Assembly: GCA_031213475.1 (NCBI GenBank) | Contig: JARUPZ010000015.1 | Location: 10,134,528-10,198,527, forward strand | DNA: 64,000 nucleotides | DNA from: Nereocystis luetkeana | Taxonomy: Eukaryota; Sar; Phaeophyceae; Laminariales; Laminariaceae | Direction: 5' to 3' | Shown: one piece after another, positions 1-51,385 of the stretch | How the letters are laid out: each line of letters begins with the position of its first letter | How positions within the stretch are numbered: position 1 is the first letter of the stretch | The notes under the pieces: model-generated | The model's input: only the letters and a program-made list of their open reading frames with translations | What the model was told of the DNA's origin: nothing | Databases searched by the model: none | Translations under genes and position numbers: made by a program

Positions 1-354
1 TCTTCGGGCGGATTGGTAAACTTAAAGCACCACACTTCTACGTTCGTCCTCGTATCGTGTGTCAATTTAACCTATTATAGCTCCAGTTACAACATTAGCA
101 CAGGCTGCTGTTGCTACTGGCGCTTGGGCACGTTGACCCGACCTGATCCCCGAGAAGGGCAGGTGCGGTGGAGAGAGCAGAGCCACCCTGAAGAGTCATC
201 TCTCCCGGGTAGTGTGGGACTTGCGCGAGCTCACCCACTAACAAAAACCGAGGCTATGAGGCCTTCCCGCCGGACTTGGTCCAGTTACGGTCCACCCTAC
301 CAGTTGGGGCGTTGGTCCTCAGAACTCCAATATCGGTCATTGTCGGTTATTTTC

Positions 355-550
355 CTTGCAGACGCACCGACCGATATGCTCGAATTTCAAACCGATACAC
401 GCTTGACTAAACCAACTGATGCGCTTGACTTCGTACAGACGCGCTCGACTCTCGATTGATACGCTAGAATGTTTTTACCGATGATGGTGCTTAACTTCTG
501 ACCGACATGCTTGAAAGCAGATGGACACGCTCGACTACCGACCGATGCGT
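355..550 (+). repeat. Degenerate minisatellite, ~20-24 bp unit
   Basis: Repeated variants of a unit containing CTCGACTACCGACCGAT, for example near 395, 430 and 525. The mirror copy is at 50,774-50,969, and a longer run of the same family lies at 51,386-51,710. Confidence 0.6.
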
Positions 551-589
551 CCTGTGCTGTGTGTACCACGTCCTCAAGACCACTACCTT

Positions 590-732
590 TCACGATATAG
601 TTGACTTCATCGATCATACGGTGATCACCATCACCAATCATGAATATCGTTGTCCTCACCGATAATGACTATCGTCATCAATCCTGGTGATCGTCATCAC
701 CGATCATGATGATCGTCATCATCAATCATATG
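590..732 (+). repeat. ATC-rich minisatellite
   Basis: Short tandem variants of GATCGTCATCATCAATCAT. The array continues after the LINE insertion at 2,063-2,110, so the truncated LINE at 733-2,062 landed inside it. The mirror is at 50,592-50,734 and 49,209-49,256. Confidence 0.65.
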
Positions 733-2062
733 ACGAAAGATGGGGGGAACGTGCCGTTCACCGTCACCGCAGCCGGCCAAGTGTACAAACAAACTACCGA
801 GTTTGTGTATCTGGGCGGGGCTATCAGCGCAGATTGGACGGGCAGAAGAGTCGAGGTAACGCGCCGACTCCAGACGGTATGGGCATGCTTCGGACAGTAT
901 AAGATAGAAATCTATGACCGCCCGGGTGTGCGCCTACGCCTGAAGGTGCAAATGCTGAGAGCCGAGGTGATCGAAACGTCGCTCTACGGTTGCGTTACTT
1001 GGAGCCCGAGTAAGACTGATTACGGTAGGCTACGGGAGGTCCACCACAAGATGCTCCTCCGATGCATCGGCTGGCGAAAACGAAAGCGCGAAGACCACAT
1101 TCTATCCTATGCTAGCGCGCTTCTCAGGACAAAATATGAGAGCGTTGAGACGACGGTACGCAGACGTAGGCTCTTGTTTTCGGGCTTTGTGACACGCATG
1201 GGATAGGAGAGTCTGCCGAAGAGGGTGATGTTTGGGGAGATGGTTGGGGGTAAGGGTTACTCCGGAGGGCAAGAGTGGGACTGGATGAGGCACCTTGAGG
1301 AGGATCTCAAGGAGTTCGGCATCAAGCCCGAAGGGTGGTGCGAGGCAGCACAGAAAGCCGGCAGATGGTTCCGACGGGTCGAGGAAGGGGCGGAGGCCTT
1401 CATGCGAAAAAAACATAGAGATGAGAAGGAGGCATCGGCAGAACGGCATAGAATAGCTGAAACCACGACCGAAACCGTTGACACCAACGCGCCTGCGCAG
1501 AATGGCAGGGAAGAGGAGGGGAGGCGAAAGGGGGACGAGGGGGAGTTGGGGGGGGAGGCGGTCTGCCCAACAGACTGAAGCCTGGTTATGGCCACCATCG
1601 TCATGATGCACTCTCTTCTTTGGGACCCAAGTAACTAGCATGGCGCCACCTGGGCAACTTTGCGTGTCTGTATGCTCCAGCGCCTGCCATTCGTATTTTC
1701 TTTCCCCCCCGCCCGTGTTTGTCCCTTTTTGTTCCTTCTTTTATCTTTCTTTCTTTCCCGTTCGTACCTCTTTGTGTCTCTGATAGTATGGTCCGTTTTG
1801 CCTTTTTTTTGCGTTTTGCTATCTGCGTTTGTTTTTGTTTTGATTGTTTTTCGCTTCGCTTCATCTTTTTTAGGTTTTTGTCGGCTAAGTTCCCTTTTTG
1901 CTTCCCTGGTATCCGTAGTGGTGGAGTGCGTATGCTGTTTTTTTGTTTTTGCCTCTGTTTTACTATTATCGAGGTATTTCTTCCACTCCAGAGTTATTGG
2001 AGCCTGCCCTGCGACCACGGACTGCATTGTATTGTGACTTAATGTGATAACAACAACAACTA
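733..2062 (+). mobile_element. LINE-A, 5'-truncated copy (left arm)
   Basis: It matches the 3' 1.3 kb of the full-length LINE at 3,390-7,769. Its reading frame encodes the part of the polyprotein downstream of the catalytic RT box, including VYKQTTEFVYLGG and the C-terminal WRKRKREDH and RRRRLLFSGFV stretches. The frame is closed at 1,204-1,206 by TAG, where the full-length copy has CAG. A pyrimidine-rich 3' region follows. The copy ends in TTAATGTGATAACAACAAC. The same insertion is in the right arm (49,257-50,591), so it is older than the palindrome. Confidence 0.9.
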
Positions 2063-2116
2063 CAAGCGATCATCATCGCCAATCATGACATTGATCGTCA
2101 TCATCAATCACCACCG

Positions 2117-2404
2117 TACGCGTACTGACCGCACAATCGAAAAACAAACGAAAGACCACGCGACAAATCGGCCAGGAACCAAGCAATAACCTATCTGGAG
2201 ACCGTTCGGGAAGGAACCATTCCAGAAATTGTCAGGAAGATCATTCTGGCGACCGAAACCCCATCCGAGCGCTGTCCATCCCCCCCGACCCTCTGCCGCT
2301 GCGCCAACTACTTCGCAGTCGATCACAAAAAATACCAGAGGCCTGAGCTTACTGCAGCAATGTTTCGCGTCCAAGCGAAACGCAAGCTATACATATACCA
2401 GGTA
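2117..2404 (+). pseudogene. Open stretch with protein-like composition, unrecognised
   Basis: From about 2,157 the frame reads KSARNQAITYLETVREG, then IPEIVRKIILATE and later HKKYQRPEL and MFRVQAKRKLYIYQ. The mix of charged and hydrophobic residues looks more like coding sequence than its surroundings. The left arm has TGA near 2,125 where the right arm has CGA. The stretch ends at CAG-GTACTC, which could be a splice donor but is also one of the TACCAGGTA motifs. I do not recognise a family, so this could be chance. The mirror is at 48,741-49,253. Confidence 0.3.
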
Positions 2405-3384
2405 CTCGTCGGCGATCCCTTCCCCGAACGATCCCTCGATCCCCATGCGTGTATGCCTGTATCTACCCCTCACTCTCCCCCCGTTGCTTCAACTGAGTTC
2501 CTCTACCCGGAAACAAACCACACACATCAGGAAGGAGAAAAGGAAGGAAGCAAGGAAGCAAGGATGGAGGGAACATAGCGAAGCCAACTGCCCGCACTAC
2601 GCCGCAACTCACCACACCGCTCAGCACAACCCCAAAAACAGAGCAATTACGCGCACATCACACACCATTACGAAACGAAACTCACTAAAGACGCACAGAT
2701 TTGGACAACAACAACCCAGCGACGGTCGTGGTGCCACGATAGTGCGGTACCCTTGAGTCCGCGCCCCCGAGACAGTGCGGCGATAATCGCTTGTCGCCAC
2801 CTCGTCCCACAGCAGTACCACACTAGACCGGCGAGATGCTTCGGGACAGTGCGCGTATCGTCTTTGCGCGATGCACCACACTACCACACTACAGAGGGAC
2901 CACGGCAACAATATTTACAGGAGTATTTGCGTATTTGCTCTCTATGTAGTATGCCGGCATCTTTCGCTACGGACAACAAAGGAGGTGACGGTGATGCTCA
3001 TTACAGAAATACACCAAGAACACCGCCTAGAGGTACACCCCCCCCCATTCACGTTGAACCCTTTGGAAAAACAACACCAACGGCCGTATCGTCTACCAAG
3101 AACAACAGTCATTCATGCAAGGTTCCACTGTCCTCCCTCCTTACCACCTGGTGGTAGTATCGTCCTCGTGCCTACAGTTCAGTAGTTTGCCGTGGGAGAA
3201 AACGATATTACGACACTTGGCAGGTGAATTGCGGAAGCTCTCTTCGGTTTCGCTTTTAACAGACCGATAAGAGGTTCACCCATCCGCCAAGCCCCCAAAC
3301 AAAACACAGGTTTGTTGCATATATCTTTCGAGAGGTACCAGCAAGACTATCCAGTGGCGCTGCACACCTGTTAAATAGAACTTA
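2405..3384. other. No recognisable feature
   Basis: Low-complexity C- and A-rich DNA shared with the right arm (47,935-48,740). Open frames here are short and overlap in several phases, with no recognisable motif. Confidence 0.6.
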
Positions 3385-3389
3385 CACGT
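3385..3389. repeat. Target-site duplication, 3' side of LINE-A
   Basis: CACGT abutting the CAA-type tail. Its partner is at 7,771-7,775. Confidence 0.85.
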
Positions 3390-3897
3390 TGTTGTTATTG
3401 TTGTTGTTGATGTTGTTGTTGTTATCACATTAAGTCACAATACAATGCAGTCCGTGGTCGCAGGGCAGGCTCCAATAACTCTGGAGTGGAAGAAATACCT
3501 CGATAGTAAAACAGAGGCAAAAACAAAAAAACAGTATACGCACTCCACCACTACGGATACCAGAGAAGCAAAAAGGGAACTTAGAAGACAAAAACCAAAA
3601 AAGAAGATGAAGCGAAGCAAAAAACAATCAAAACAAAAACAAACGCAGATAGCAAAACGCAAAAAAAAGGCAAAACGGACCATACTATCAGAGACACAAA
3701 GAGGTACAAGCGGGAATGAAAGAAGAATGAAAATAAGAGGGGACAAAAAAGCGATAATCACGGGCGGAGGGGAAAGAAAATACGAATGGCAGGCGCTGGA
3801 GCATACAGACACGCAAAGTTGCCCAGGTGGCGCCATGCTAGTTACTTGGGTCCCAAAGAAGAGAGTGCATCATGACGATGATGGCCATAACCAGGCT

Positions 3898-5139
3898 TCA
3901 GTCTGTTGGGCAGACCGCCTCCCCCCCCAACTCCCCCTCGTCCCCCTTTCGCCTCCCCTCCTCTTCCCTGCCATTCTGCGCAGGCGCGTTGGTGTCAACG
4001 GTTTCGGTCGTGGTTTCAGCTATTCTATGCCGTTCTGCCGATGCCTCCTTCTCATCTCTATGTTTTTTCCGCATGAAGGCCTCCGCCCCTTCCTCGACCC
4101 GTCGGAACCATCTGCCGGCTTTCTGTGCTGCCTCGCACCACCCTTCGGGCTTGATGCCGAACTCCTTGAGATCCTCCTCAAGGTACCTCATCCAGTCCCA
4201 CTCCTGTCCTCCGGAGTAACCCTTACCCCCAACTATCTCCCCAAACATCACCCTCTTCGGCAGACTCTCCTGTCCCATGCGTGTCACAAAGCCCGAAAAC
4301 AAGAGCCTACGTCTGCGTACCGTCGTCTCAACGCTCTCATATTTTGTCCTGAGAAGCGCGCTAGCATAGGATAGAATGTGGTCTTCACGCCTTCGTTTTC
4401 GCCAGCCGATGCATCGGAGGAGCATCTTGTGGTGGGCCTCCCGTAGCCTACCGTAATCAGTCTTACTCGGGCTCCAAGTAACGCAACCGTGGAGCAATGT
4501 TTCGATCACCTCGGCTCTCAGCATTCACACCTTCAGGCGTAGGCGCACACCCGGGCGGTAATAGATTTCCATCTTACACCGTCCGAAGCATGCCCATACC
4601 GTCTGTAGTCGACGCGTTACCTCGACTCTTCTGCCCGTCCAATCTGCGCTGATAGCCCCGCCCAGATACACAAACTCGGTAGTTTGTTTGTACACTTGGC
4701 CGGCTGCGGTGACGGTGAACGGCACGTTCCCCTCATCTTTCGTTTGCAGACACATTATCTCCGTCCTGGACTCCGAGACCGTCAGGCCGAAAGCGGCACA
4801 TGCAGACACGATCACCGTCATCATCCTCTCCAGGCCGTTGGATGATCTCGGTACTTTGCCTGCATTGTCAGCCTAGAGCATAGCCCACAGTGTCTGGGCC
4901 TCTTTATCATTCCCCTGTCCGTCGGCGTGCCCGACCCGTGCCTTCCCCCTCTTCTTTTTTTTCTTCTCCTGCTTTTGTTGGAGTTGCACCAAGCTGTCCG
5001 TGATGGCGTTATCAGCAGCGAAACGTTTCCCCGCCACACGCAGCACCGCTGTAAAAAACATGTTGAACAACAATGGCGCGAGCACACACCCTTGCCGTAG
5101 GCCCTGACTCACGTCGAAACGTCGAACATATCTGAGCAC
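3898..5139 (-). pseudogene. LINE-A reverse transcriptase, catalytic box and C-terminal region
   Basis: Starts with [19 protein letters not shown]. The catalytic motif, YADD in active relatives, reads stop-ADN near 4,865-4,876: the Tyr codon is TAG and the second Asp is Asn. Downstream are VYKQTTEFVYLGG, a further TGA at about 4,522-4,524 where the right-arm LINE-A copy has CGA, then GWRKRRREDH, RRRRLLFSGFVTRM and an acidic, Lys-rich tail ending VCPTD. This C-terminal block is also what the truncated LINE-A and LINE-B copies retain. Confidence 0.9.
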
Positions 5140-5794
5140 TCGCCGTCATCCAGCCGCACGCATGCTCGCATGCCGTCGTGAAATTGGCGGATAACGGTGA
5201 GCATTCTAGGTGGCACGCCAAAGCGAGCCAAGACAACCCACAGGAGGGTTCGGTCGACGGAGTTATAGGCTTTGGTGAGGTCGACAAAGCACATGAACAG
5301 CGGAGTGTCCTTCTTCCTTGCCAATTCCTGCAAGCGTCGCACCACGAACATCATGTCGACCGTCGATCGTTCGGGCCTAAAGCCACACTGCTCCTCTGGC
5401 AGGATGCCTTCCCGTACACAGTAGTCGCTGAGTCGACGCGCGATGACTTTGAGGAGTACTTTGCCGGCATGCGCGACAGGGGAAATGCCACGATAGTCAC
5501 CACACTCCGTCCTGTCTTTCTTCTTGTGCAGCACCTTAATCGTTGCATCCTTCCATTGCTGCGGCACGACCCCTCCCCTCCACACAGCGACGATAATCTC
5601 GTAGAAGCTTCCCAAGGTGTCCGAGTCTCCCTCGTCGGCCAGGACCTTCAGAAGTTCAGCTGGGAGACCATCAGGCCCAACCGCCTTGCGGTTCGCCATC
5701 GCCCTGATCGCGTCTTCCACCTCGTATCTAGACGGGACGTCGTCCAGTGGACTGCACGAGGGCCAGACCTTGAGCTCATCGACGATAGTCGGGT
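5109..5794 (-). pseudogene. LINE-A reverse transcriptase, fingers/palm part
   Basis: Continues the polyprotein in a different phase from the endonuclease. Visible RT blocks in order: [60 protein letters not shown] and [14 protein letters not shown], which carries the first catalytic Asp. The frame ends at FDVST because an 8-bp tandem duplication (TTCGACGT twice) near 5,120 shifts phase. The following block GLRQGCVLAPLLFN continues in the segment at 3,898-5,139. Without a working RT this copy could move only with proteins supplied by another copy. Confidence 0.9.
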
Positions 5795-7648
5795 CTAGGG
5801 TCGATGACTGGTGCTTAGCAGCTTATGGAACCACCTTACCCATCGTTCCCGGATGAGGCCAATGTCTCGTAGTAATCTACCTTCCTCGTCCCTGATGTAC
5901 TGCGAATGGAAAGTCCTCTTTCCTTCCACATTCATCCCCTTAAGGTGCTTGTAGAACCCAAACTGATCGCCTTTTTGGATACACCTTTCGAGTTGACGGA
6001 CGTATTCCTCGAAGAACTTCTGCACTCCGTTCGTCCTCGTACGTTTGAGCTGTTTAGTGGCAATCTTCACAGCTTTTCGCAGATTTTTGTCTTCCGGGTT
6101 AGCACGTAGTTGCGTCCTCGCATTTTCCCTCTCCTGCCATCGTGAGTGCACCTCTGCTTTTACCTCGTCGGGCGTACACCAGCCCAGCGGCCCTTGTTTT
6201 CGACTGGTATGAGGTGCTAGTTTAGCAGCAGTCGAGAGCACGGTCTCCACCAGAGCAGTTGCCTTATCATCGACACTCCCAATTGTACCAGGCGGTGGGG
6301 GGTTAAGTTTGGTTATCTCCCTATTGAGGTCCGCTCGGAGACCGGGGTCTGCCATCAACCGTTGTAGATCAATAGCTCGTTTTCCGCTGCCTGCTTTTAC
6401 CCTCCGATTCGGCGCGAACCGACCCAAGAGGCGAATATTGCAGACCACGAGGTTGTGGTCAGATTCATGCCGATCTTCTGGTGGTTTCCGTACTGTCATG
6501 TTGCGGACCAGGCGTCGATCAACTTGCCGAGTAAGCATGTAGTCTAGCCTACACTGACCCCTCCCGGAGTTTGGAGATTGGAAAGTGTACGACGCTCCGC
6601 GAGTAGGTGTGGCAAAGAACGTGTTGAGGAGCGCAAGCCTGTTGTCAGCTGCGTGGGGGAGTAGTCGCTCTCCGCTGTTGTTCAATTCATCCCGCCCGCA
6701 TTTACCCATCACCTCACTGCCGGCACATCCGCTCTCTCGCTTGCCGGTGCGAGCATTTGCATCCAAGAGCACAACTAGGTGATCCCCACTTGGGACCCCC
6801 GAGACGACTTTGTTTAGTTCGTTCCAGAGGTGGTCTTTCTCGCGAACGGGTGCATCCAGTATCGGCGCATAGCCGACAACAAAATAAACAGCAATTGATT
6901 TGCCCTCACCTTGAGTGCGAACTTTCATCAGCCTGGCCCTAACGCACTCCACCTCGAGACCATCCTTGCCCACACCTGCCACAATAGACTCCCTGACAGC
7001 TAGTTCTACACCATGGGTGCCCTTCCTCTCGTATTTGCTGCCGTCTGCTCCAGAGCCAAAACTCGTGTATCCAGCTGCTGTGAACGTGCTATGCCCGTCT
7101 CGCCTAGTCTCTTGGAGACCTACGACATCGCATCCTAGTTCCTGGCATACCTTCATGATGACCTCGCTGTGGCCGATGCCATTTTTGCCGTTGAAGGCGA
7201 GTGTGCGAACATTGAACGTACCCACGACGACTTTCCCAGCTCTGTACCTAGCCCTAGCATCTGAGCTTAACCTTCGAGCTTCTCTGCGACCTTTCCGACC
7301 TTGCCTCCTCTTCTTCCGTGCTGCGTGTTTTTTCTCCTCTACCCTCCGCTTTTCCCAGGCGGTGGATTTTTTCCGTTCCGTGTTTTTTCGCCCGGCCCGG
7401 TTCGGGCCGAGGTTCCGACGTGCTGGGGGCAGCAATCCCGACGCGCCTCGACGCCCATCATCTCCTAGATGACGTCGAATGGGGTGCTTACTCACGTGGA
7501 TCCTAGCCTCTCTTCTCCGTTCACTACGAGTTCCACGCTTTCCGCGACGGTGATGCGACACGGCTACCGCAGGCAATACTGCCGCGTGGAAAAAATCCGC
7601 GAGGAAAATTTCCGCCATATCGCTGGCCATCACCGCCGGCTCGACCAT
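5795..7648 (-). CDS. LINE-A polyprotein, N-terminal part: basic region plus APE endonuclease
   Basis: 617 codons. Residues 1-135 are very rich in Arg and Lys, probably nucleic-acid binding. Residues ~139-405 form an endonuclease/exonuclease/phosphatase-type domain: N146 in FNVRTL, E180 in GLQETR, Y260 in GYAP, D296 and N298 in LLDANA, D369 in RLDYML, and S396-D397-H398 in SDHNLVV. All expected active-site residues are visible. In this family the enzyme nicks target DNA to prime reverse transcription. The remainder links to the RT. The frame ends early at TAG (5,795) because one base is missing near 5,812. In another phase the expected linker ([14 protein letters not shown]) continues into the RT. 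The Met at 7,648 is the first in frame, and the true start is unknown. Confidence 0.9.
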
Positions 7649-7770
7649 GCTCGAACGCTAGTTAGACGCGCAAGCAAGGTCAAGGCCGCGCTCCACTGGG
7701 AGCTCTAGCACGTGTTGGGGAAGCCGCAGGCCGGAGCTCCACCCCGGCCGGGGAGCAGCCGAGGGAGGAA

Positions 7771-14155: not shown

Positions 14156-14454
14156 GAACATAATGTGCGTCGGTTTAGCTAGAGGTCAGAGTTGCCCCTC
14201 GAAAAGCCTTTATACTTTAGCTTCAAGGTGCGCTGGAAAAAGAATGCTCTGCTGCGCGTCAGTAACAAACAGTTTGAAACTAGTAGTTTCAGGTGCAGCT
14301 GTTGGAACCACACCTGTCAAAGGTCGTTGCTCCAATTAATTGGTTGGCTGTTGGTTTTACTGTGCGTCGTAGGTACCGGGTACGCTTCAATCTATATATA
14401 ATATATATATCAATAGTACGATCCAATCGACATCGGAATCGTAAATTGGAATTT

Positions 14455-14849
14455 AACAGACTAATCGGAACAATGGGAACGAAACAAAAAATGAGAACGG
14501 ACGTTTTTTTTTTGAAAGCAAACCAATTGTGTACAACTCCAAGAAAAAAAGTTGACAGTCCTGTGGCGCTGTACAGCAGCCTTCGAATGAGCTGTCGCTC
14601 AGGCTGGAAGTCCTCGGCATCGCCGCGGTAGCCAGCATCTAGAGAAATCACAATAGAGCCAGCGTATATCGCTTTTTGCGCCCACCCGAAGGCACGAGAT
14701 GGAGCATGACCGTTCTGACGAGCTCCTCTCACAGGGCTGGCCAAGGGGTTTCGCAGGATCATTTTGGGGTTCTGATATACCACATGGTTCTGGAGATACG
14801 GCTTGGTTATCATTTTAGGCTTCGTTCCCATTTTTCCGATTTGTCTGTT
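14455..14849 (+). mobile_element. MITE-1, left-arm-only copy
   Basis: 395 bp with imperfect terminal inverted repeats (AACAGACTAATCGGAAC... and the complement of AACAGACAAATCGGAAA...). It is flanked by ATTT at 14,451-14,454 and 14,850-14,853. The right arm has the uninterrupted site with a single ATTT at 41,209-41,212. A near-identical copy is at 36,154-36,543. The minus strand is open across almost the whole element and includes VISLDAGYRGDAEDFQPE, which may be a captured coding fragment; family not recognised. Confidence 0.9.
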
Positions 14850-14853
14850 ATTT

Positions 14854-15259
14854 CCTGAAAAATCGCGATTCAAAATTTCTAAAATGGCTGCGATAGTTCA
14901 GCGATTCGCGCAAAAACACCTTTTACCCGATACGATGTATTGACCCCCCCTCACCATCCAGGAGGAGATTATTGGAGCTCGAATCGCTCGTGCGATTCAA
15001 GTCTAAACGCAAGCGGAACCGATGTGTTTACTAAACTACTGCTGTGCCCCTGTAGAGTAACGTAACCCCCGCTGCGATTCACCTCCCGTAGGCAAAGTAC
15101 ATGCCAACTCTGTTGCAATTCCCCCCTAGACCATATCAGTCGCACTCCCACATAGAGGTCATGTGTCGTGTGTGTCAATTTAAATAGGTACACAACCGTT
15201 GTTGTGGTATCACCTCCGATGCCCATGCCGCGCTCGACTGAATCTTCCTTCTCGTCCCC
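14854..15259. other. No gene recognised
   Basis: Sequence shared by both arms, including a segment around 15,175-15,230 just downstream of the minus-strand 75-codon frame. It includes GACACACACGACACATGAC. Confidence 0.5.
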
Positions 15260-19066: not shown

Positions 19067-19935
19067 GGTAGGTTTGATGGAAGGATGAAGATATCAGCTT
19101 TCCAACTGTTCTACGTGTAGCCGAATTATACGGTTCTGGGTGAGGAGGAGATGAGTAAATATGAGTCCTCAAAAACATACCAGGTACTAATTTTCAACAG
19201 GAGAGGAGCCCCCAACCAACTTTGTCCTGGGGATCACCGGAAAGCTCACGATTTGGACCGTGCAGCGCTCCGATTAGTTTTGCAAGAACCGCGGTCGTTC
19301 CTGAGCTATAAGCGTTCAAAGAAGGGAACCTCAATCCCCCTCGATCACCTCTGCCTCATCTGTAGCCCCATGCTTTCGCTTTACAAGTAGCACCGTTGGA
19401 AAGTTCGAATCCTCAGCTAGCTTTCCGTGTAACCTGACCAAGGGTTTTAATGTCCCCCCGTGTGTGTCTGTGCTCGAGTTAATTTGTCTGGATGCCCATA
19501 TTTTCTGGCATTATATTTCAATGAAAAGGGACAAATGATAGCCAACCAAACAAATTATCTTGGAAGATGCAAACAAAAAGTAAGTGAACTCGCACGGGGT
19601 CATTTATTATGGGTGACCGTAGAAATAGTTTTAGCCTCCCCTTGGCCCGTCTCCCTCTGTCATTTTTGCGTCGGTTGTGTCGTCCTTGACCCACCACTTG
19701 GACATATATATATGCGTGTGTAGGACTGCTCCTTTTTTGTTTGTTGGTATTAAGAGCTCTTTGTCTCTTCCCTCTTCTTGTCGGGATGGTATACCACAGC
19801 TCGTTAGTACGGTTTCCCGTTTGAACTGGTATACTGCCGTTCGCATTGTTTTTTCCCATCGAAACGCATTTTGTTATACAGCCTGTTTTGTGGCCACACA
19901 GCAGTACAGGCAAAATTACAGGGAAGTGAGCTAAT
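19067..19935. other. No gene recognised
   Basis: Almost identical to 33,857-34,650. Frames such as 19,460-19,723 show no motif. One TACCAGGTA lies at 19,178-19,186. Confidence 0.5.
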
Positions 19936-19939
19936 AATG

Positions 19940-20360
19940 AGAGAACAACAACGAACACGGGATTTTCCTCCATCGTCCGAGCTCCTACAACCGGCGCACG
20001 AAGAACAACATACAATACTAACCAATCGTAGATCGTGCGGGGCGGAAGTCGCGGTGTTCCTCCGGGAGTAATCACTCGGTCCTGCAGTAGTAGTTAGTTG
20101 CTAAATAAGGCTGGACGCGACGATTTCCAACCTCACCTTGCCTGCGTAGGCAACAAGTGAAATCCCTCTCACTCTGTAGTTGTTGCAATCTGCTCGATCC
20201 TTCGTTTTGTGAACGACCTTGACGATCGCATCATCCCATTACTGGGGGACTTTTATCCTGTTACCCAGACATTGATATGGTGGTGTGGAAGCACTGGGCG
20301 AATGCGGGGTGGTCGAGTTTAAGAGGTTCGGCCGGGAGGCCATCTGGTCCCAGGTTGTAT
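19940..20360 (-). pseudogene. Fossil RTE-like reverse transcriptase fragment
   Basis: Minus strand, across phases: [66 protein letters not shown] and MLFFVRRL. Each aligns in order with the LINE-A RT blocks ([72 protein letters not shown]). It is heavily broken by stops and phase changes. An old insertion, since both arms have it (mirror 33,432-33,852). The unbroken 185-codon frame at 19,518-20,075 is in the wrong phase for the RT. Confidence 0.8.
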
Positions 20361-20983
20361 GGGTTATTATGGTGAGGAGAGAAGAAACACAGCGACTACG
20401 AGTATAAATTCTGCACTTCCTTGTTGCCACGAGAGCGGATCTTGTCAGAGAGCACACCCACCGCCCTGTTGTTTGGAGTGTGTCCCGTGACAAAATGGAG
20501 ACACGTGATGCAATCCTGACTCGATGCAACGCGAAACGCAACCCGCCCGTTGGCACCAATTATTTATGTTGAAAAAGTATCCTGATATCGAGCAGAGGGA
20601 TCACTGGGGGTCTGAACGTCTAATCGACAGCTGGGAGTTGGGGAGTATGCGCACAACAACAGACAGCAGTGAGTGGCAGTTATTGCAAGATTAAAATAGT
20701 CACCTGGTAGTTGTTTCCCGGTGACCGGTCGCCGACTACTGCTTGCTGATCGACAACATGCAAACGTCGCATCCGACACACAACAAGCAACCGGCGGACG
20801 TTTGGCATGGCAGAAGGAAGCAGAGAATACTAAGCAAGAGGATAAGAAAGAGGACACTCACCAACAACGGGATGAATTGCCACTTGTCACCCCTGCCATC
20901 CTGTGTTCGAGGGTGGACCTCTGCCGGTGTAGATCGTGAGTTCACCTCGTCGACGCAGACCAAGTGCGTGGCAGCTCACAAGT
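20361..20983. other. No gene recognised
   Basis: Near-identical in both arms. Short frames on both strands without recognisable motifs. Confidence 0.5.
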
Positions 20984-21165
20984 AAGGGTCTTTCTTGTCG
21001 GAGAGCTTTTTTTGTCCGATAATTTCAATAATTTTTTCGTGCATATATATATATGTGAACTCTAGCTTTCCTGATGTTCTAGCTTCAGAATAATTTCACA
21101 TGTTGTGACAGGACGCCTCCATCTCTTGACGCATATATCTATTCATTCCAAACTATAAATATAGT
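20984..21165 (+). mobile_element. MITE-2 family, diverged copy
   Basis: Begins TAAGGGTCTTTCTTGTCGG and shares with 24,788-25,034 the segments GGAGAGCTTTT and GACGCCTCC near the far end, followed by a TCCAAACT segment. Also in the right arm at 32,640-32,812. Confidence 0.6.
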
Positions 21166-21184
21166 TGCAACTTGTCTGACTGAT

Positions 21185-21720
21185 TACCGCGTACCCGGTG
21201 GCGGGTACCCGGGACCGTCGGAGCCGGAACTGTCCCGGTCCAACTCACGGAATCGCGGGTATTCGTACCTCGGGTACTCGTGAATTGTTCGAGACCGAGC
21301 CCCCAAGACCAGTGTATATGTTGATTTGTACATGCACTGCAGCGGCTGTCCCCCTAGCTTTTTGCATCTCGCCCCTGCAGACTACACACTTGCACAGTCG
21401 GATCGAGAATAAATAGAGAATACTCCTACCCGCCATTGCACAACACGCTAGACACTAGAGTTGCACAACGGCCTCACAATTAAGAACCGGGACGGTGCGG
21501 GGCGATTAAGGCGGGACCAGAACCAGATACACGGGTCAGGCAGACACGGGTACCCGGGTACCCGGGTACACGGGTACCCGGGATACAACGCACTATGTAT
21601 TCCCGGGTACACGGGTACCCGGGATATAACGCACTATTTTCGACACTTTTAGCGCCTGAGCGGCGGCGGGCAAAAGGCGGACACGGGTAATCGGATACCC
21701 GGGTGCCCGGGTACCCGGTT
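21185..21720. repeat. GGGTACCC-rich minisatellite region
   Basis: Many copies of the palindromic word GGGTACCC/CGGGTACCCG, densest at 21,540-21,640 and 21,690-21,720. Copy number differs in the right arm (32,130-32,615). Confidence 0.8.
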
Positions 21721-21969
21721 TACAATATATATATATATATACTATTTTTGCTCCCCTCCCTGTGGCGATTGAGGGGCGGCGTGGTAAGCGGACACGGGTA
21801 CTTGGGTTAACATATATTATTTTCTCCCCGTGTAGCTTTTGAGAGGCGGCGTGGTAAGACGAAAGGGTGGGAAATCATGACTTCAGTTCGCGACTCTCGA
21901 CGAATGCAGGCAACTAGGTAGGGGTATTTTCTGTGGGATCGAGTAGAGAGGTGGGGAGTGGGGAGTTGA

Positions 21970-22262
21970 AATAAGAGCGTGAAACATGTAATACTCATTA
22001 TTTTCCAAAGTTTAGAAATAGTTGAACATGTATATTAATACGAAGTATACGTAGTAGGCGTTTGAAAATAGTTGGAGATATGTATCAATATACGGAGGCG
22101 TTCTGTAACTATTCGTGAAATTCTCCACAAGCAAAAAATCAGGTTTGTTAACTTTCTCGTATTTGAAAAAAAACCCAGGAAAATCAGGAAGATTGAAACA
22201 TTGCGCGAACAAAACATCGAAATTATGGAAAAGGCTCTCCCATGAGAAAACCCCTAAAACCC
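21970..22262 (-). mobile_element. MITE-2 family, diverged copy
   Basis: Inverted relative to 24,788-25,034, sharing the GGAGAGCC terminus, TTTCCTGGGTTTTTTTTC, the TTCACGAATA area, CCGTATATTGATACATAT and a CTTTGGAAAATA end. The mirror is at 31,597-31,890. Confidence 0.6.
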
Positions 22263-22346
22263 CCGACCGATATCCCTCCAATCATCTCATCAAACATCCA
22301 ATATATCAACCCCGTACCCCGTATGGAAACCATGGTGAACCACAAC

Positions 22347-22694
22347 TGTAACAAACGAGTAGGTTTAGCAGTCTGGGAGAAGGGATCTTTAGGGATTTTT
22401 TTAACCTTACAAATGTGTAGCGTGGTTTGCACTTCGGAATCGTCGTCCGCATCTGAGAAATTTCCTGGTTCGATGCAAACTCGGCGTAGCCGCGTTTAGT
22501 TTATGGCGAGTTTTGTCCCATTTTGGCTGCGGTTTGGGGTCAGGGTTAGGGTTAGGGTTAGGGTTGGGGTTAGGGTTAGAGTCAGGGGTTGGGTTGGGTC
22601 TTCGCTTGTACCTTGATCTCAACAGGAACCAAAACATCCGAACAGCCTACCAACCCAAAGATCCCTTCTCCCAGATTGTTAAAGGTCCTCCAAC
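22347..22694 (+). mobile_element. Left-arm-only 348-bp insertion with internal inverted repeats
   Basis: Absent from the right arm, where CAAC is single (complement at 31,513-31,516). In the left arm CAAC lies at 22,343-22,346 and 22,691-22,694. Near the two ends CTGGGAGAAGGGATCTTT (about 22,373) and its complement (about 22,657) face each other, as in a MITE. The alternative is a right-arm deletion at 4-bp microhomology. Confidence 0.65.
22543..22580 (+). repeat. Interstitial telomere-type repeat (GGGTTA)n
   Basis: About six units with one GGGTTGGGG variant. It lies inside the left-arm-only insertion, so it is more likely part of that element than a relic of a chromosome end. Confidence 0.85.
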
Positions 22695-22781
22695 AAACAT
22701 CGAAACGTTGGGGCTTCTTGAGATTCGTCTATCTCCTGGTTCTTGCTATAGTAGGCATATTTAGGCTGGCTGAGGGATATA

Positions 22782-22925
22782 GTGTGTGTATGTCTGTCTG
22801 TCTGTATGTCTGTCTGTGTGTGTATTTTTGTCTGTCTGTGTGTGCGTGTGTGTATGTGTGTGTCTGTCTGTGTGTGTGCGTGTGTGTGTATGTCTGTGTG
22901 TGCGCGTGTGTGCGTGCGTGTACCC
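22782..22925 (+). repeat. TG/TGTC compound microsatellite
   Basis: Runs of TGTC, TG and TGCG. It sits about 65 bp inside the palindrome spacer. Confidence 0.9.
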
Positions 22926-23544
22926 GTTGCAGCGCTACGGGCTCCAGAAGTCGTCCAGGAGGGCGACACGATACTCTGTGATGTACGCCGACTGACCTGA
23001 CTAGTGACGTATGGAGGGTGCATCGTGTAAGACAGCGATAAGGCCGAAGGATAGCTCGCTGTCATATCGATGTAGGGATACAATGGAGTGTCCCCGGCGG
23101 GGGAGGCCATTGTCTGGGTCATGGAAACCCCGTATCGGGTGTAGTGGTCGATACGGGTGCTTTGTTGCGCTACCTGGGGTTTAGTTAATCCCACCAAAGT
23201 GAAGAAATAAACAAGTCAAACCACATACCGTTCACACGCAGTGCATGAGTATGGCCCATCACGTGCCTGTCCGTTAATCACACTTCGTATTTGCTGAGCA
23301 ATACCAACGCCCGACTCCGTGACGTCTGGCCACGTGTCCAGAGAGGATTTAGGAGAGAGGTACGGAGAGAATCCCCATAAGGACTCTCTCTACGAACGAC
23401 AACAGCTGGCTATCGACGTGAGACCGAGCCGATAGCGGCCCAAGAGGAGGCCAAGCTGTAACATGGTGAACCCAGATGATGACAGAGAGGGGAGGAGATT
23501 GGAGCTCAAGGGCATGAGCTCTGGCGGGGACACGGGAGATTGAT
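22926..23544. other. No gene recognised
   Basis: The minus strand has a fairly protein-like open stretch (MTQTMASPAGDTPLYPY, then TASYPSALSLSY) at 22,990-23,197 that runs into the microsatellite. No family was recognised. Confidence 0.4.
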
Positions 23545-23775
23545 ACCCAGGGAATTTGGCCCCGGGCACCTGGGCCTGAGGTTTTTCCCGGGCGGAACCT
23601 GGGCCCGATACCTGGGCCCGAGTATCCTCCTGGGCGGAATGAGGCCCAAGCATCGTGGCCGGAGTTTTTCCCTAGGTGGGATCTGTGTCTGGGCCCGAGC
23701 ATTTCCTTGATGGAATCTGATGAGTGGCCAAGTATCGGGGCCCGAGTTTTTTTTCCCGGGTGGAATCTGATGGAT
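23545..23775. repeat. GGGCCC-rich minisatellite, ~60-bp unit
   Basis: About four diverged units containing GTTTTTCCCGGGCGGAA and CCTGGGCCCGA. A separate 27-bp tandem pair (GATGAAGGTGAGCATCTCGC) follows at 23,801-23,850. Confidence 0.7.
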
Positions 23776-27972: not shown

Positions 27973-28002
27973 ATCGATAGATGCAGTCCTTAATCTATTG
28001 TG
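27973..28002. repeat. 30-bp flank copy shared with 30,101-30,130
   Basis: The two copies differ at one base and bracket LINE-B3, so they look like its target-site duplication. The upstream 15 bp (TGTGGCCGGCAGTGGC) is also shared, at about 26,717 and 30,084, but is split from this copy by LINE-B2. Confidence 0.7.
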
Positions 28003-28190
28003 TGTGTGTGTGTTCTTCACATTAAACCGTTCTTTCTACCCGTCGACATCCAGCACAACCAGTGTCCGTGCCGATTCTTCAATCCTAGGAGAGATACAAG
28101 TTCTGTGGTCACAAAGCTACGCCACAGAGATACTACGTTGCCACGTGTGCAGTGTGAACTGCAGTGGGCAATGCAAAGCCATGTCATCAT

Positions 28191-28193
28191 ACT

Positions 28194-28195
<2 letters not shown>
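28191..28195. repeat. ACTAG target duplication, left of LINE-B4
   Basis: Partner at 29,001-29,005. Removing the insert leaves the LINE-B sequence CATACTAGATACGAC intact. Confidence 0.85.
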
Positions 28196-28225
<30 letters not shown>

Positions 28226-29000
28226 CTCTCTTGCGCTGACTCTCCGTGATTTTCATTTCATTTTTTCTCTTCCTCTTCCTTTTCTGATTGATAAGCCGTA
28301 CTCAAGGAGCCGTGTGGCGTGGTTGGAAGACGAACCTGCTCTGCTCGGCTCGTATTGTCTGACGCCAAGGGGCTGGGCATAGTTGACGAACGCAGGGCGG
28401 AGACGGCAGTCTGGGTAGCAAGGTACCAGGCGGATTAGCAGGGAGAACCTGGCTATACTACTCGTACCACAAGCTGCTGCCGCCACCTAGAAGGTGCTTT
28501 GGGCTTTGGTCTGCCTGTTATTTCCCCTTTGTTATTTTTCCTTGTTACTTTCTCCTTGGTTCTTTGTCTTACTCTGTTCACAAGCAGTGGTGTCTTTTGT
28601 TATTTCTTCTTTTTTCCAGCTCGTTCTTTTTCAAGTGTAGGCCACCTCGCCTGCGGGGGGGGGGGCACGACAGATTGTTTCTCTTAGATTTTGCTTTCAT
28701 TTTTCTTCTTTTTCTTTTTCGACTTGTCTACCTTGTTTTGTTTTCTCTTTGATTGTTTCTTTTCGTTTCACTATTTCATAGATTGCGTATGTCGTGCCTG
28801 TCGTATCTAGTATGATGACATGGCTTTGCATTGCCCACTGCAGTTCACACTGCACACGTGGCAACGTAGTATCTCTGTGGCGTAGCTTTGTGACCACAGA
28901 ACTTGTATCTCTTCTAGGATGGAAGAATCGGCACGGACACTGGTTGTGCTGGATGTCGACGGGTAGAAAGAACGGTTTAATGTGAAGAACACACACACAC
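28196..29000 (+). mobile_element. LINE-B4, nested 3' UTR copy
   Basis: Begins directly in a run of about 30 T and continues to the (AC)n end. It nearly matches 27,194-27,972 at an offset of 1,032 bp. Flanked by ACTAG on both sides, it is a clean insertion into LINE-B3. Confidence 0.9.
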
Positions 29001-29005
29001 ACTAG
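29001..29005. repeat. ACTAG target duplication, right of LINE-B4
   Basis: Follows the (AC)n tail of LINE-B4. Confidence 0.85.
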
Positions 29006-30100
29006 ATACGACAGGCACGACATACGCAATCTATGAAATAGTGAAACGAAAAGAAACAATCAAAGAGAAAACAAAAACAAGGTAGACAAATCGAAAAAGA
29101 AAAAGAAGAAAAATGAAACCAAAATGTAAGAGAAACAATCTGTCGTGCCCCCCCCCCCGCAGGCGAGGTGGCCAACACTTGAAAAAGAACGAGCTGGAAA
29201 AAAGAAGAAATAACAACAAACACCACTGCTTGTGAACAGAGTAAGACAAAGAACCAAGGAGAAAAGTAACAAGGAAAAATAACAAAGGGGAAATAACAGG
29301 CAGACCAAAGCCCAAAGCACCTTCCAGGTGGCGGCAGCAGCTTGTGGTACGAGTAGTATAGCCAGGTTCTCCCTGCTAATCCGCCTGGTACCTTGCTACC
29401 CAGACTGCCGTCTCCGCCCTGCGTTCGTCAACTATGCCCAGCCCCTTGGCGTCAGACAATACGAGCCGAGCAGAGCAGGTTCGTCTTCCAACCACGCCAC
29501 ACGGTTCCTTGAGTACGGCTTATCAATCAGAAAAGGAAGAGGAAGAGAAAAAATGAAATGAAAATCACGGAGAGTCAGCGCAAGAAAGAAAAAAAACAAA
29601 ACTAAAAGAGAAGACAAGGGAAGACCACGTTCGAGCCAGCTGCACCAGTTGGTAGCGCTAGTAGTATGGTCATATTCTACTTCCTAGTCGACTTGGTGCC
29701 TTGCTACCCTGTCTGCCATCTCCTTCCTACTTTCGTCTACCGCCGTTTCCCTTCTACCCCTCCTGTCCCCCCCCCTCTCCGCATTCCCTCGGTCGGGCTT
29801 TATGCCACTTCTCCTGTTGCCCCCTCCCCCCCCGTTCCCTTGGGCACCATCCACGGCGGATGCGCGGCGCTGTCTACTCATCTCAGCCTCAGCCTCGTGC
29901 CACCTCACCATGAACCGTTCGGCTGCTTCAAGGATCCCCCGGTACCACTTCCCCACCTTTTTGGCTGCAGTGGGCCACAACGCGGTCTCAACTCCAAACA
30001 CCAAGGGGGCAACTTCCGTTGACCCTTCGGTGGCTCGGAACTCCCTAAGGTCTTCGACTATGTATCTATGCCAAGTCTTACACTGTGGCCGGCAGTGGCT

Positions 30101-30130
30101 ATCGATAGATGCAGTCCTCAATCTATTGTG
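30101..30130. repeat. 30-bp flank copy, 5' side of LINE-B3
   Basis: One mismatch to 27,973-28,002. Confidence 0.7.
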
Positions 30131-31290
30131 ACGGCAATGAATGGCTTTCGATATACGTTTCTGAATATCTTGTGACCTGCAATTGCTATCGATAAACACC
30201 GATGATAATCTATTGTGGTGGACAATGTCTACCGATTGACACCATCAATTACCCGCCTATTAGCACACCAGCAATGAACTCTGATTTAGTAAGCACTGCA
30301 ATAGATTTATTAAGCACTGCAATATTTTGGGCCGCAGAAATGTCGTAATTTCATCTGGTGATCACCACCAGTCAGTGCTGGTGTATGGTGATGAGCAGCA
30401 ATCAATGTGGGTACATGGCATAGCGTGAAGGAGGACTGCAACGTTGTGTGTCTCAACAAGACAGTGGGCATCATGGGGGTTAAGTGTGTTGCATTGTCGG
30501 CTGTGTTGTTGTGATTGGTCCTCGGTGATGCTAATAATATATTACAGTGATCCCTTGGGATAGATAGGTGAGGTAGTAATTTCCATATAACCTGGACAAT
30601 AGAAAGGAAATAGAACATTGCCGCTACAGTGGCCCCGAAAAAGCGTGTATCAATGAATGAATATTGTTAACGACAACAGACTGGCAACACTGGGTCACGA
30701 TAGACATTGCGAACCAAAATAGACTAGCAGCCCTGTCTATCGATAGACACTGTTAACGACAATAAACTAGCAACGCTGTCTATCGATACATACATATATA
30801 TGTCATGTTGTTAACGACATTAGACTGGAAACGTTGTATATCGATAGATTTTGTCGGGGAGCAATATACTTTCGGCTATAATAGTCTATGGACACAATAT
30901 ATATGCCTTTGCCCTAACAAGGGAGTCACAAGGTTGTTCGTAGATGGCGATTGTCCTGAACAAAATATGCTGGAATAGCAACCGCGATAGATATTGTCAG
31001 AACAATAAACCAAAACGTTCGCCTATCTATGGCTATTGCCGCCATAGATAGGTATATATGCACGCAATCGTATCCATCAATAATAATAGCCATCGCCCAC
31101 CACAATAGACTGTTGGGCGTGATTTCGCAATTATTATAATAACTAAACCTACCTGGTATTATATACCGTGGAATGATGCATGTCGATGGCCATCTTTGAC
31201 GACCGCCGAAGCTTCTAGTGCCGCAAACAATAGGGACGCGGACGCGGTTGTGTCCAACGATAACCATCGCCACCCACAATAGATTGTGAA
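30131..31290. repeat. TATCGATAGA minisatellite, right part
   Basis: Diverged units of roughly 50 bp with CTATCGATAGACA, GTTAACGACA and AATAAACTAGCAAC, clearest at 30,660-30,860. No gene is seen in it. One TACCTGGTA lies at 31,150. Confidence 0.6.
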
Positions 31291-31596
31291 TCTGACTTAC
31301 TTCATTTGAGGCACACAAAAACTCAAGTTAAGAAACAGAAAACTGAGGACTTTCTTGTAAAGTTGAACGGCATCCGAAAAAACAGACTTACTTCAGTTCG
31401 GTATGGGAGAAAAAACTCGGGTTAAGAAAAGGAAAGCGGATCATTTTGTTGCCAATATGGTTCTATTTTTAATATCCATAATATTTTTGAAAGCCCCAAC
31501 GTTTCGATGTTTGTTGTGGTTCACCATGGTTTCCATACGGGGTACGGGGTTGCTATATTGGATGTTTGATGAGATGATTGGGGGGACATCGGTCGG

Positions 31597-36013: not shown

Positions 36014-36153
36014 AATAGACGGAAAGCATACGAACTCAGGAAGGTCGGGTATCTGCTGCTATCTGCTGCGCGGACGAAAAAGACGAAAGAGAGGGAGATA
36101 CAGGTAAAAGTCTGTAAGAGCTAGTCGACCCGATACCTAGCCACCCGATCTAA

Positions 36154-36543
36154 CAGACAAAACGGAAAAATGAGAACGAAACAAAAAATGGGAACGGACG
36201 GTTTTTTTTAGAAAGCAAACCAATTGTGTACAACTCCAAGAAAAAAAGTTGACAGTCCTGTGGGGCTGTACAGCAGCCTTCGAATGAGCTGTCGCTCAGG
36301 CTGGAAGTCCTCGGCATCGCCGCGGTAGCCAGCATCTAGAGAAATCACAATAGAGCCAGCGTATATCGCTTTTTGCGCCCACCCGAAGGCACGAGATGGA
36401 GCATGACCGTTCTGACGAGCTCCTCTCACAGGGCTGGCCAAGGGGTTTCGCAGGATCATTTTGGTTCTCTGATACACCACATGGTTCTGGAGATACGGCT
36501 TGGTTCTCATTTTAGGCTTCGTTCCCATTTTTCAGATTTGTCT
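36154..36543 (+). mobile_element. MITE-1, right-arm-only copy
   Basis: About 390 bp, nearly identical to 14,455-14,849 but at a non-homologous place. The left arm is uninterrupted here (about 17,341-17,352). The right terminal repeat is slightly altered (TTTGTCTATC rather than TTTGTCTGTT). The minus strand carries a 106-codon open frame. Confidence 0.85.
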
Positions 36544-36545
36544 AT

Positions 36546-37390
36546 CATTTCGTTTCCGGATCCACCGACAGGAAGCTGTATCAGTACAGCTGCCCCTCCT
36601 CCCTCCTCCCCTCCCCTTGTCGCCGTTCTTGGCGTCCTCGGCTGCATGGCGCAGCCGGCTCTTCTGTGCTGCTTCCTATGGGCCACGTAAAAACAAAAAA
36701 GTTCCTTATAACTGTTAGAAAAGCCCGGCAAAGACAAATCTGCAACATCGGCTTGAGAAAAACTCAGGCCGATCTTTGGTTCGAAGCGGCGAGATTCCGA
36801 GTCCTCGACAGACATCGATCAACAAAACCAACGATTGCGTCATGAATTCTAAACGGAGTGCGCTCGTTAGGGGCTCCCCGACCCACCCTAGGGTGACCGT
36901 CTTCACACCATGGCCGGTGTCATGTGGCGGGAGCTGACCAGGCGTATGATAAAGAAACATTTGGCCACTGGTTAGCACGAAACAGAAGACGAAACTTTTC
37001 CACCCGTCTCGAATGGCAAAAAATAGACTTTTTTCCAGGTTTGGGAGGATACCGTAGGACGCCGCGGGCACAAGCTCTCGCCCCCTTGACCATGGATCCA
37101 CCTGATATCTTCGAGGCCGTCATCTCTACATTCGTTGGCCTTGTCAGATACGGAGCGGGTTGGCCGTGGGCTGAGTCTATGTCGAGATCGAGTGTCGATC
37201 GTCGCACGAGCTGGTTTCGGTCACCGTGTTGACAATTTGCAACCAGAAAAAACAAATTGCGCCGCCTGCAGCCGTTGGGGGGGAAAAATAAAAATAAAAA
37301 ATAAACATTTTTATCTTTTTTCCCCACAGCGGCGGTACGAGATTTTTTTCGGCTGCTTTTTGAAGGCAATATATTTGAAAAAGTATTAAA
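36546..37390. other. No gene recognised (mirror of 16,430-17,340)
   Basis: Overlapping open frames on both strands without recognisable motifs. Moderately diverged from the left arm. Confidence 0.5.
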
Positions 37391-49253: not shown

Positions 49254-49256
49254 TTG

Positions 49257-50591
49257 TAGTTGTTGTTGTTATCACATTAAGTCACAATACAATGCAGTCC
49301 GTGGTCGCAGGGCAGGCTCCAATAACTCTGGAGTGGAAGAAATACCTCGATAATAGTAAAACAGAGGCAAAAACAAGAACACAGCATACGCACTCCACCA
49401 CTACGGATACCAGGGAAGCAAAAAGGGAACTTAGCAGACAAGAACCTAAAACAGAAGATGAAGCGAAGCAAAAAACAATCAAAACAAGAACAAACGCAGA
49501 TAGCAAAAAAACGCAAAAAAAGGCAAAACGGGCCATACTAACAGAGACACAAAGAGGTACAAACGGGGAAGAAAGAAAGACAAAAGAAGGAACAAAAAGG
49601 GACAAACACGGGCGGGGGGGAAAGAAAATACGAAAGGCAGGCACTGGAGCATACAGACACGCAAAGTTGCCCAGGTGGCACCATGCTAGTTTCTTGGGTC
49701 CCAAAGAAGAGAGTGCATCATGACGATGATGGCCATAACCAGGCTTCGGTCTGTTGGGCAGACCGCCTCCCCCCCCAGTTCCCCCTCGTCCCCCTTTCGC
49801 CTCCCCCCCTCTTCCCTGCCATTCTGCGCAGGCGCGTTGGTGTCAACGGTTTCGGTCGTGGTTTCAGCTATTCTATGCCGTTCTGCCGATGCCTCCTTCT
49901 CATCTCTATGTTTTTTTCGCATGAAGGCCTCCGCCCCTTCCTCGACCCGTCGGAACCATCTGCCGGCTTTCTGTGCTGCCTCGCACCACCCTTCGGGCTT
50001 GATGCCGAACTCCTTGAGATCCTCCTCAAGGTGCCTCATCCAGTCCCACTCTTGCCCTCCGGAGTAACCCTTACCCCCAACCATCTCCCCAAACATCACC
50101 CTCTTCGGCAGACTCTCCTGTCCCATGCGTGTCACAAAGCCCGAAAACAAGAGCCTACGCCTGCGTACCGTCGTCTCAACGCTCTCATATTTTGTCCTGA
50201 GAAGCGCGCTAGCATAGGATAGAATGTCGTCTTCGCGCTTTCGTTTTCGCCAGCCGATGCATCGGAGGAGCATCTTGTGGTGGGCCTCCCGTAGCCTACC
50301 GTAATCAGTCTTACTCGGGCTCCAAGTAACGCAACCGTGGAGCGACGTTTCGATCACCTTGGCTCTCAGCATTCGCACCTTCAGGCGTAGGCGCACACCC
50401 GGGCGGTCATAGATTTCCATCTTATACTGTCCGAAGCATGCCCATACCGTCTGGAGTCGACGCGTTACCTCGACTCTTCTGCCCGTCCAATCTGCGCTGA
50501 TAACCCCGCCCAGATACACAAACTCGGTAGTTTGTTTGTACACTTGGCCGGCTGCGGTGACGGTGAACGGCACGTTCCCCCCATCTTTCGT
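49257..50591 (-). mobile_element. LINE-A, 5'-truncated copy (right arm)
   Basis: Mirror of 733-2,062, the same ancestral insertion. Ends in the CAA-type tail at 49,257. Confidence 0.9.
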
Positions 50592-50618
50592 ATTATGATT
50601 GATGATGACGATCATCAT
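49686..50618 (-). pseudogene. LINE-A polyprotein C-terminal fragment, open for 310 codons
   Basis: The part after the catalytic RT box: VYKQTTEFVYLGGVISAD, MLRAKVIETSLHGCVTWSP, GWRKRKREDDILSY, RRRRLLFSGFVTRMGQES and the acidic tail. The first ~9 codons come from the flanking minisatellite. The stop after VCPTD seen in LINE-A is CGA here, so the frame runs 23 codons further. The left-arm copy is interrupted, so this arm is better preserved. It has no catalytic domain. Confidence 0.9.
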
Positions 50619-50773
50619 GATCGGTGATGACGATCACCAGGATTGATGACGATAGTCATTATCGGTGAGGACAACGATATTCATGATTGGTGATGGTGAT
50701 CACCCTATGATCGATGAAGTCAACTATATCGTGAAAGGTAGTGGTCTTGAGGACGTGGTACACACAGCACAGG

Positions 50774-50969
50774 ACGCATCGGTCGGTAGTCGAGCGTGTC
50801 CATCTGCTTTCAAGCATGTCGGTCAGAAGTTAAGCACCATCATCGGTAAAAACATTCTAGCGTATCAATCGAGAGTCGAGCGCGTCTGTACGAAGTCAAG
50901 CGCATCAGTTGGTTTAGTCAAGCGTGTATCGGTTTGAAACTCGAGCATATCGGTCGGTGCGTCTGCAAG
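50774..50969 (-). repeat. Degenerate minisatellite, right arm
   Basis: Mirror of 355-550. Confidence 0.6.
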
Positions 50970-51385
50970 GAAAATAACCGACAATGACCGATATTGGAGT
51001 TCTGAGGACCAACGCCCCAAATGGTAGGGTGGACCGTAACTGGACCAAGTCCGGCGGGAAGGCCTCATAGCCTCGGTTTTTGTTAGTGGGTGAGCTCGCG
51101 CAAGTCCCACACTACCCGGGAGAGATGACTCTTCAGGGTGGCTCTCTCCACCGCACCTCCCCTTCTCGGGGATCAGGTCGGGTCAACGTGCCCAAGCGCC
51201 AGTAGCAACAGCAGCCTGCGCTAATGTTGTAACTGGAGCTATAATAGGTTAAATTGACACACGATACGAGAACGAACGTAGAAGTGTGGTGCTTTAAGTT
51301 TACCAATCCACCCGAAGATTATTGATATTTAGTAACAATGGAGTTCCAATGAATTTAAGCCTTCTGGTGCGGGTAATGTTTGTAT

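Follow-up and report, generated by a model that had tools for sequence, protein, structure and literature searches.

Is the large palindrome in this stretch of brown algal DNA a single inverted repeat, or is it part of a larger structure? The window, i.e. the whole stretch of 64,000 nucleotides that was analysed, lies on contig JARUPZ010000015.1 of Nereocystis luetkeana (C15:10,134,528-10,198,527) in a genome assembly of 465 Mb and 1,987 contigs. An earlier note on it had described one giant palindrome with arms of ~20 kb and a spacer of ~8.8 kb. We find that this palindrome belongs to an inverted triplication of three units in alternating orientation, U1 to U3, which is itself nested in an older palindrome. 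The analysis rests on one assembled genome sequence, of which C15:10,034,528-10,298,527 (window included), 10,328,528-10,338,527 and 10,348,528-10,378,527 were examined; U3 was largely seen through matches, above all in C15:10,303,000-10,328,527. Positions are given in window coordinates, negative values lying left of the window and values right of a 100-N gap being corrected by 16,416. The fold points are named C1 (present in each of U1 to U3), C2 and C2', and the arms X and Y. U1 reads X1-spacer-Y1, the inverted U2 reads Y2-spacer-X2, and U3 reads X3-spacer-Y3.

Self-blastn of the window gave colinear inverted blocks with 91-98% identity between positions 1-22,346 and 51,318-31,513. The outermost block (1-3,392 against 51,318-47,927) is 97.9% identical, and the innermost (19,113-22,346 against 34,679-31,513) 95.4%. 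In all five first-order Markov resamples of the window the longest inverted match was at most 23 bp; hence, the inverted repeat is real. Beyond a ~348-bp insert present in X only, inner homology continues over another ~25 bp, so that the arms end at 22,717 and 31,491, as the earlier note had stated. Its outer arm ends were set by the window and not by biology. Self-comparison and flank comparison show that the right arm, Y1 (31,491-59,177, - strand), reaches 59,177; the note let it stop at 51,318 because the partner of the remainder lies left of the window. X1, the left arm of U1 (1-22,717, + strand), continues leftward within the array to -9,075 or further, followed by older inverted homology. 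Between X1 and Y1, 377 of 23,785 aligned bases are mismatched (1.59%, including 6 kb left of the window), with differences of 0.48% to 4.3% by block, the first block lying left of the window. A second palindrome (54,605-59,177 against 64,000-59,428), on which the note is silent, is 99.98% identical in its arms, has a 250-bp spacer and exits the window at its end.

The number of arms shows that a single palindrome does not describe the locus. Positions 1-3,000 of the window match seven places on C15 between 10.13 and 10.35 Mb, in the order + - + + - + -, six of them full-length and the seventh interrupted by a gap. The 100-N gap lies right of the window at 69,230-69,329 (C15:10,203,757-10,203,856), and the 16,316 bases on one side of it are identical, base for base, to the 16,316 on the other. 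This exact direct duplicate is an unmerged overlap of two contig ends and thus an assembly error, and one copy was left out of the map; gaps between duplicated pairs are described as marks of false duplications in the available text of PMC9516828. Since two of the seven matches belong to the doubled stretch, six arms remain. A single palindrome of the size first described is ruled out by these six arm copies; the expectation of two copies per haploid genome is not supported, and the arms exceed the window.

After correction, the unit X-spacer-Y is present three times in alternating orientation, from ~-9,075 to C15:10,355,739, a span of ~214 kb. U1 mirrors U2 about C2 (59,302) over more than 60 kb, with 99.2-99.9% identity in five blocks, and U2 mirrors U3 about C2' (137,363) over the 9.6 kb fetched. 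Both extra fold points are sequenced, C2 inside the window and C2' outside (near C15:10,288,900). Three copies with the middle one inverted and two fold-back junctions are the features of an inverted triplication (TRP/INV), here with much of U3 seen through matches and with its spacer inverted. A long interspersed nuclear element (LINE) is found in all three X arms, while its site is empty in all three Y arms (in X3, the first ~1.1 kb of the element were aligned), showing that all six arms keep their identity. The arm-specific insertions with empty sites that the note had reported are real, namely the LINE and a 404-bp element in X and another 404-bp element in Y1. In addition, X2 carries a ~9.3-kb insert relative to X1, and U2 has 369 additional bases. 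Such private differences in elements, inserts and tandem number identify the units as separate copies.

At C2 (59,178-59,427, 250 bp) the arm extends outward to the motif AAGGAA (59,172-59,177), which is followed by a 19-nt insert, 16 nt of which match a nearby stretch. The return begins at a second AAGGAA (59,197), via a 231-bp loop, and continues as Y2, the start of the inverted U2 (59,428-64,000, + strand), to the right of the window. In the uninterrupted X1 arm, the two words lie 225 bp from each other in inverted orientation and make up a 6-bp inverted microhomology. The arms at C2 are 99.97% identical, and the loop is located within a dispersed repeat, for which at least 35 other copies with 85-89% identity were found among the best 40 candidates scored. 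A location of C2 inside a transposon with 78-bp terminal inverted repeats was considered and rejected, as the reverse matches are the same stretch on the other strand. At C2' (~1.2 kb) the outward course of the arm stops at the position equivalent to -9,075 and the return starts at -7,820, forming a blunt fold-back.

Outside the array, the flank right of Y3 is the inverted homologue, with gaps, of the flank left of X1 over 78 kb leftward. As the outer flanks are inverted homologues beyond the array, the C1 palindrome predates the array and exceeds it in length, with outer limits beyond the fetched flanks. Out to about -9.8 kb, the flanks mismatch at 0.2-1.7% per kb. From there to -20,951, across a Ty3-type element, the value is 2.8-13% and some large gaps occur; from -69,330 to -77,984, the end of the fetched right flank, it is 0.6-2.3% per kb. 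A block of 48,378 bp between -69,329 and -20,952 (L012-L016), which carries a weak lipoxygenase-like match, is present on the left only and has no right partner.

The copies have diverged to different degrees. U1 and U2 differ by 0.07-0.2% overall and by 0.03-0.09% in the inner arms; 21 differences were counted in 31,617 bases between Y1 and Y2, and 73 in 35,696 bases, mostly in the outer part, between X1 and X2. X-Y pairs differ by 1.4-1.5%; for U3 against U1 and U2, the compared stretches gave 0.2-0.6% (X2-X3 0.29%). Between -7,820 and -1,808, the arms form the pairs Y1-Y2 and X2-X3, and at seven sites both pairs stand together against X1 and Y3; three consecutive sites link X2 to Y3 instead, and three further sites conflict. 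To the right of -1,807, the edge of the chosen comparison block, X1 and X2 are nearly identical, the pattern shifting within ~1 kb. The identity of X1 and Y1 is patchy as well. The inner 17,748 aligned bases contain a mismatch-free run of 1,513 bp (longest run in 2,000 random placements, 614 bp), and one 3-kb stretch has 5 mismatches (fewest in 300 random placements, 33). This patchiness is best explained by conversion between arms; local differences in mutation rate could also be responsible.

The spacer of U1 (22,718-31,490, 8.8 kb) consists largely of dispersed repeats. Its half at 22,350-26,700 is found on the + strand in U1 and on the - strand in U2 and U3 (C15:10,322,618-10,326,977), the other matches being dispersed repeats. 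Since the arms of U3 follow the order of U1, the spacer of U3 is inverted relative to its arms, which rules out that U3 is a plain + copy. Patchy identity, together with the inversion of the U3 spacer, points to conversion and to crossover between arms. A crossover within 16.5-20.3 kb of the arm was rejected, because 96 of the 101 diagnostic sites at which Y3 was typed (innermost ~20.3 kb) are Y-like, with 4 X-like and 1 neither; an exchange would therefore be expected in the innermost ~2.5 kb of the arm.

How did the array arise? We consider it probable that an old palindrome was converted into an inverted triplication by fold-back template switching and later partly homogenised. The starting point would have been a large palindrome with the C1 spacer at its centre and arms that match over some 50 kb. 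At the outer end of one arm, replication or the repair of a break would have folded back on itself (C2), the whole unit would have been copied in reverse, and a second fold-back at the other end (C2') would have yielded U1-U2(inverted)-U3. Conversion among neighbouring arms may then have made parts of the six arms more alike, and the spacer of one unit may have been inverted relative to the others by a crossover between arms. In a gene-poor and structurally self-renewing locus, no product would be needed for these steps. We favour this origin because of the map of array and junctions, the LINE phase and the inverted homology of the outer flanks; because C2 shows inverted microhomology and a short insert matching nearby sequence and C2' a blunt fold-back; because of the low Y1-Y2 divergence compared with that of U3, the arm pairing in the outer 6 kb and the 1,513-bp run; and because the U3 spacer is inverted and published inverted triplications and fold-back junctions look alike.

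Some observations are difficult to reconcile with this origin or limit its support. In the junction sequence of C2' no microhomology is visible. With 225 bp, the gap at C2 is wider than the ~100 bp prescribed by one model, origin-dependent inverted-repeat amplification (ODIRA), and the 231-bp loop is below the 766-70,466 bp of the sequenced human fold-back cases in the portion of PMC3907307 available. Random placement is a weak null for conversion, as the mutation rate may vary along the arm. The evidence comes from the assembly of a single genome, in which U3 was seen largely through matches. A plain one-event triplication predicts that X1 falls with X2 and X3, and Y3 with Y1 and Y2; the outer 6 kb show neither grouping. 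In the inner arms, the divergence of U3 from U1 and U2 is several times that between U1 and U2. This agrees equally well with two separate fold-back steps and with a single event followed by conversion. In such a stepwise, breakage-fusion-bridge-like course, the C2' duplication would have come first (about 0.5% ago) and C2 much later (about 0.05% ago), in line with the low U1-U2 divergence in the inner arms and the near-identity of the arms at C2. We regard this as possible but rather doubtful, since outer flanks that are still inverted homologues are hardly expected after two independent fold-backs with terminal loss, and conversion across the 250-bp C2 loop could also have lowered the divergence of U1 and U2.

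Two further explanations touch on whether the copies are physical and whether they are under selection. DNA amplification can produce inverted chimeras with short fold-back loops, and the near-identical arms at C2 would, alone, be compatible with such a chimera. As the exact duplicate around the gap shows that assembly failed at this locus, the units might be alleles or chimeric joins instead of physical copies. This is very improbable: the error is a plain contig-end overlap, and the array stays after one copy is dropped; every junction joins non-identical copies (X-Y 1.5%, X2-X3 0.29%); Y1 and Y2 differ by a private element and the spacers by tandem number; three U copies exceed two alleles; and loops of 250 bp and 1.2 kb are unlike missed-adapter reads. 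Three places on C15 carry the spacer, with private differences among them, and most of U1 belongs to another contig than most of U2, in agreement with the earlier view of a long-standing structure and no joining error. A selected palindrome of the sex-chromosome type, in which gene conversion maintains genes with a reproductive role, would account for the large size, the several inverted arms and the conversion-like tracts suggested by the patchy identity, and the four arms of the willow W have a related layout (PMC7023750, as far as available). We nevertheless consider it unlikely. Scanning 94 of the 137 open reading frames (ORFs; >=100 aa, starting before 59,178) gave only the two domains of the LINE, which upholds the note's statement that the arms hold no recognised host gene, although short-exon genes could escape. 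In the flanks, 84 of 186 ORFs (>=135 aa) were scanned, ten of the longest separately and 74 together. They yielded Ty3 domains, a NADAR domain, a single penicillin-binding match and a single sub-cut-off lipoxygenase match; the lipoxygenase match was located through single scans of 50 ORFs of the 74-ORF set, and the penicillin-binding match was not among these. Rfam and transfer RNA scans gave no matches. None of the 15 HMG-box matches in the genome is on C15, which leaves the proposed link to sex chromosomes unsupported, though this is a weak test that presumes a lineage and depends on lineage and sex. The genome has 68 matches to chlorophyll-binding proteins, which mark it as that of a photosynthetic eukaryote. 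Elsewhere in the genome, six chlorophyll-binding exon matches of nearly the same score (37.4-38 bits) surround the strongest HMG-box match (3,386,501) in G000:C31:3,294,234-4,024,918; this cluster is possibly an amplified region near a candidate sex locus.

Inverted triplications have mostly been described as fresh disease or laboratory events. Like those reported in PMC10766186 and PMC4352052, the array has three copies with the middle one inverted and two fold-back junctions. Such junctions reportedly carry microhomology and templated insertions, and in rearranged yeast junctions the arms are separated by 1.1-34.9 kb (PMC4352052, PMC10766186); the junctions of inverted triplications are held to be unstable (PMC10766186). 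Unlike the cases in the available parts of these reports, the array is found in the reference chromosome of a photosynthetic eukaryote and consists of palindromic units, with diverged copies and no selected gene seen. With ODIRA it shares the inverted triplication and a short interrupted inverted repeat at C2. It differs in the gap at C2, which is wider than the limit of about 100 bp given in the accessible text of PMC10766183, and in having a repeat at only one of the two junctions, since C2 has the 6-bp pair and C2' has none; C2' may be a secondary, later junction. Human fold-back inverted duplications, as described in the available part of PMC3907307, show 2-8 bp of inverted microhomology at 13 junctions, some with insertions, and resemble C2 in the single-copy loop between inverted arms, the microhomology and the insertion. 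Their loops are longer, however, and they adjoin terminal deletions, translocations or rings, whereas the array is internal and both flanks are kept. Several arms of ~20 kb or longer are also a feature of willow W and mammalian Y palindromes, and arm-to-arm conversion would be another if the patchy identity reflects it; the locus differs from them, on the portion of PMC7023750 available, in that no genes were recognised in its arms and that the C1 arms are mostly 91-98% identical. By title and abstract, none of the papers listed in literature searches on algal palindromes described one like this. While the kind of structure is known, the nesting is unusual: the palindrome is part of an inverted triplication that itself sits inside an older palindrome, and no genes were recognised.

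Here, a reference chromosome has apparently retained an inverted triplication; both junctions are sequenced, and the copies have diverged by different amounts. Questions that it can help to address are for how long such structures survive, whether conversion of arms prefers short loops, and whether palindromes can persist without genes. The structure is at least four times larger than the slice covered by the original coordinates, and the assembly duplication is flagged. More speculatively, the palindrome could be gene-poor and renew itself, its outer arm ends serving as a repeated fold-back site that adds successive inverted copies; these copies would be homogenised across the 250-bp fold, and crossover between arms would flip them. 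If so, palindromes would persist by their own instability, without selection on genes.

Several mobile elements and repeats lie within the arms and the spacer. The LINE, with endonuclease (PF03372) and reverse transcriptase (PF00078) domains, occupies 3,393-7,770 on the - strand of X1, and no relative of it was found among the viral contigs searched. Self-comparison and genome matches identified a LINE-related fragment at 733-2,060 (+ strand), which is present in both arms and dispersed in the genome at about 91-92% identity. The 404-bp element with terminal inverted repeats at 14,451-14,854 is present in X1 and X2 and absent from Y1 and Y2. A copy at 36,148-36,551 is private to Y1, its site being empty in Y2, X1 and Y3; it was either inserted after the separation of U1 and U2 or lost elsewhere through conversion. 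A related copy is found elsewhere in Y3 (L035:5,330-5,742) and is absent from Y1 and Y2. Among the Y arms, the Y1-only and Y3-only insertions are 99.5% alike, and the element has probably been mobile recently. The ~348-bp insert of X1 (22,347-22,694), absent from Y1, has inverted ends and contains TTAGGG-like repeats. An origin of C1 from telomere repeats was rejected, as the short degenerate TTAGGG-like run (22,537-22,599) sits in this insert and is thus no sign of end fusion; TTAGGG arrays are found at the start of contig G000:C1. The spacer holds a nested inverted repeat (26,731-27,782 against 28,998-30,034, from self-blastn) and, at 27,164-29,002, a tandem repeat with poly-T and a period of 1,032 bp, the overlapping parts of which are identical; it has 2 copies in U1 and 3 in U2.

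In the outer flanks, a degenerate array of direct repeats extends from -99,985 to -81,804 (L009-L010). It is GC-rich, with matches of 1.5-6.8 kb that are 73-96% alike, and the ORFs in it that were scanned singly gave no Pfam match. The Ty3-type retroelement, with integrase and reverse transcriptase, is found in both the right (L034) and the left flank (L017), with the NADAR domain in a neighbouring frame, and left of the window it is bounded by 190-bp repeats resembling long terminal repeats.

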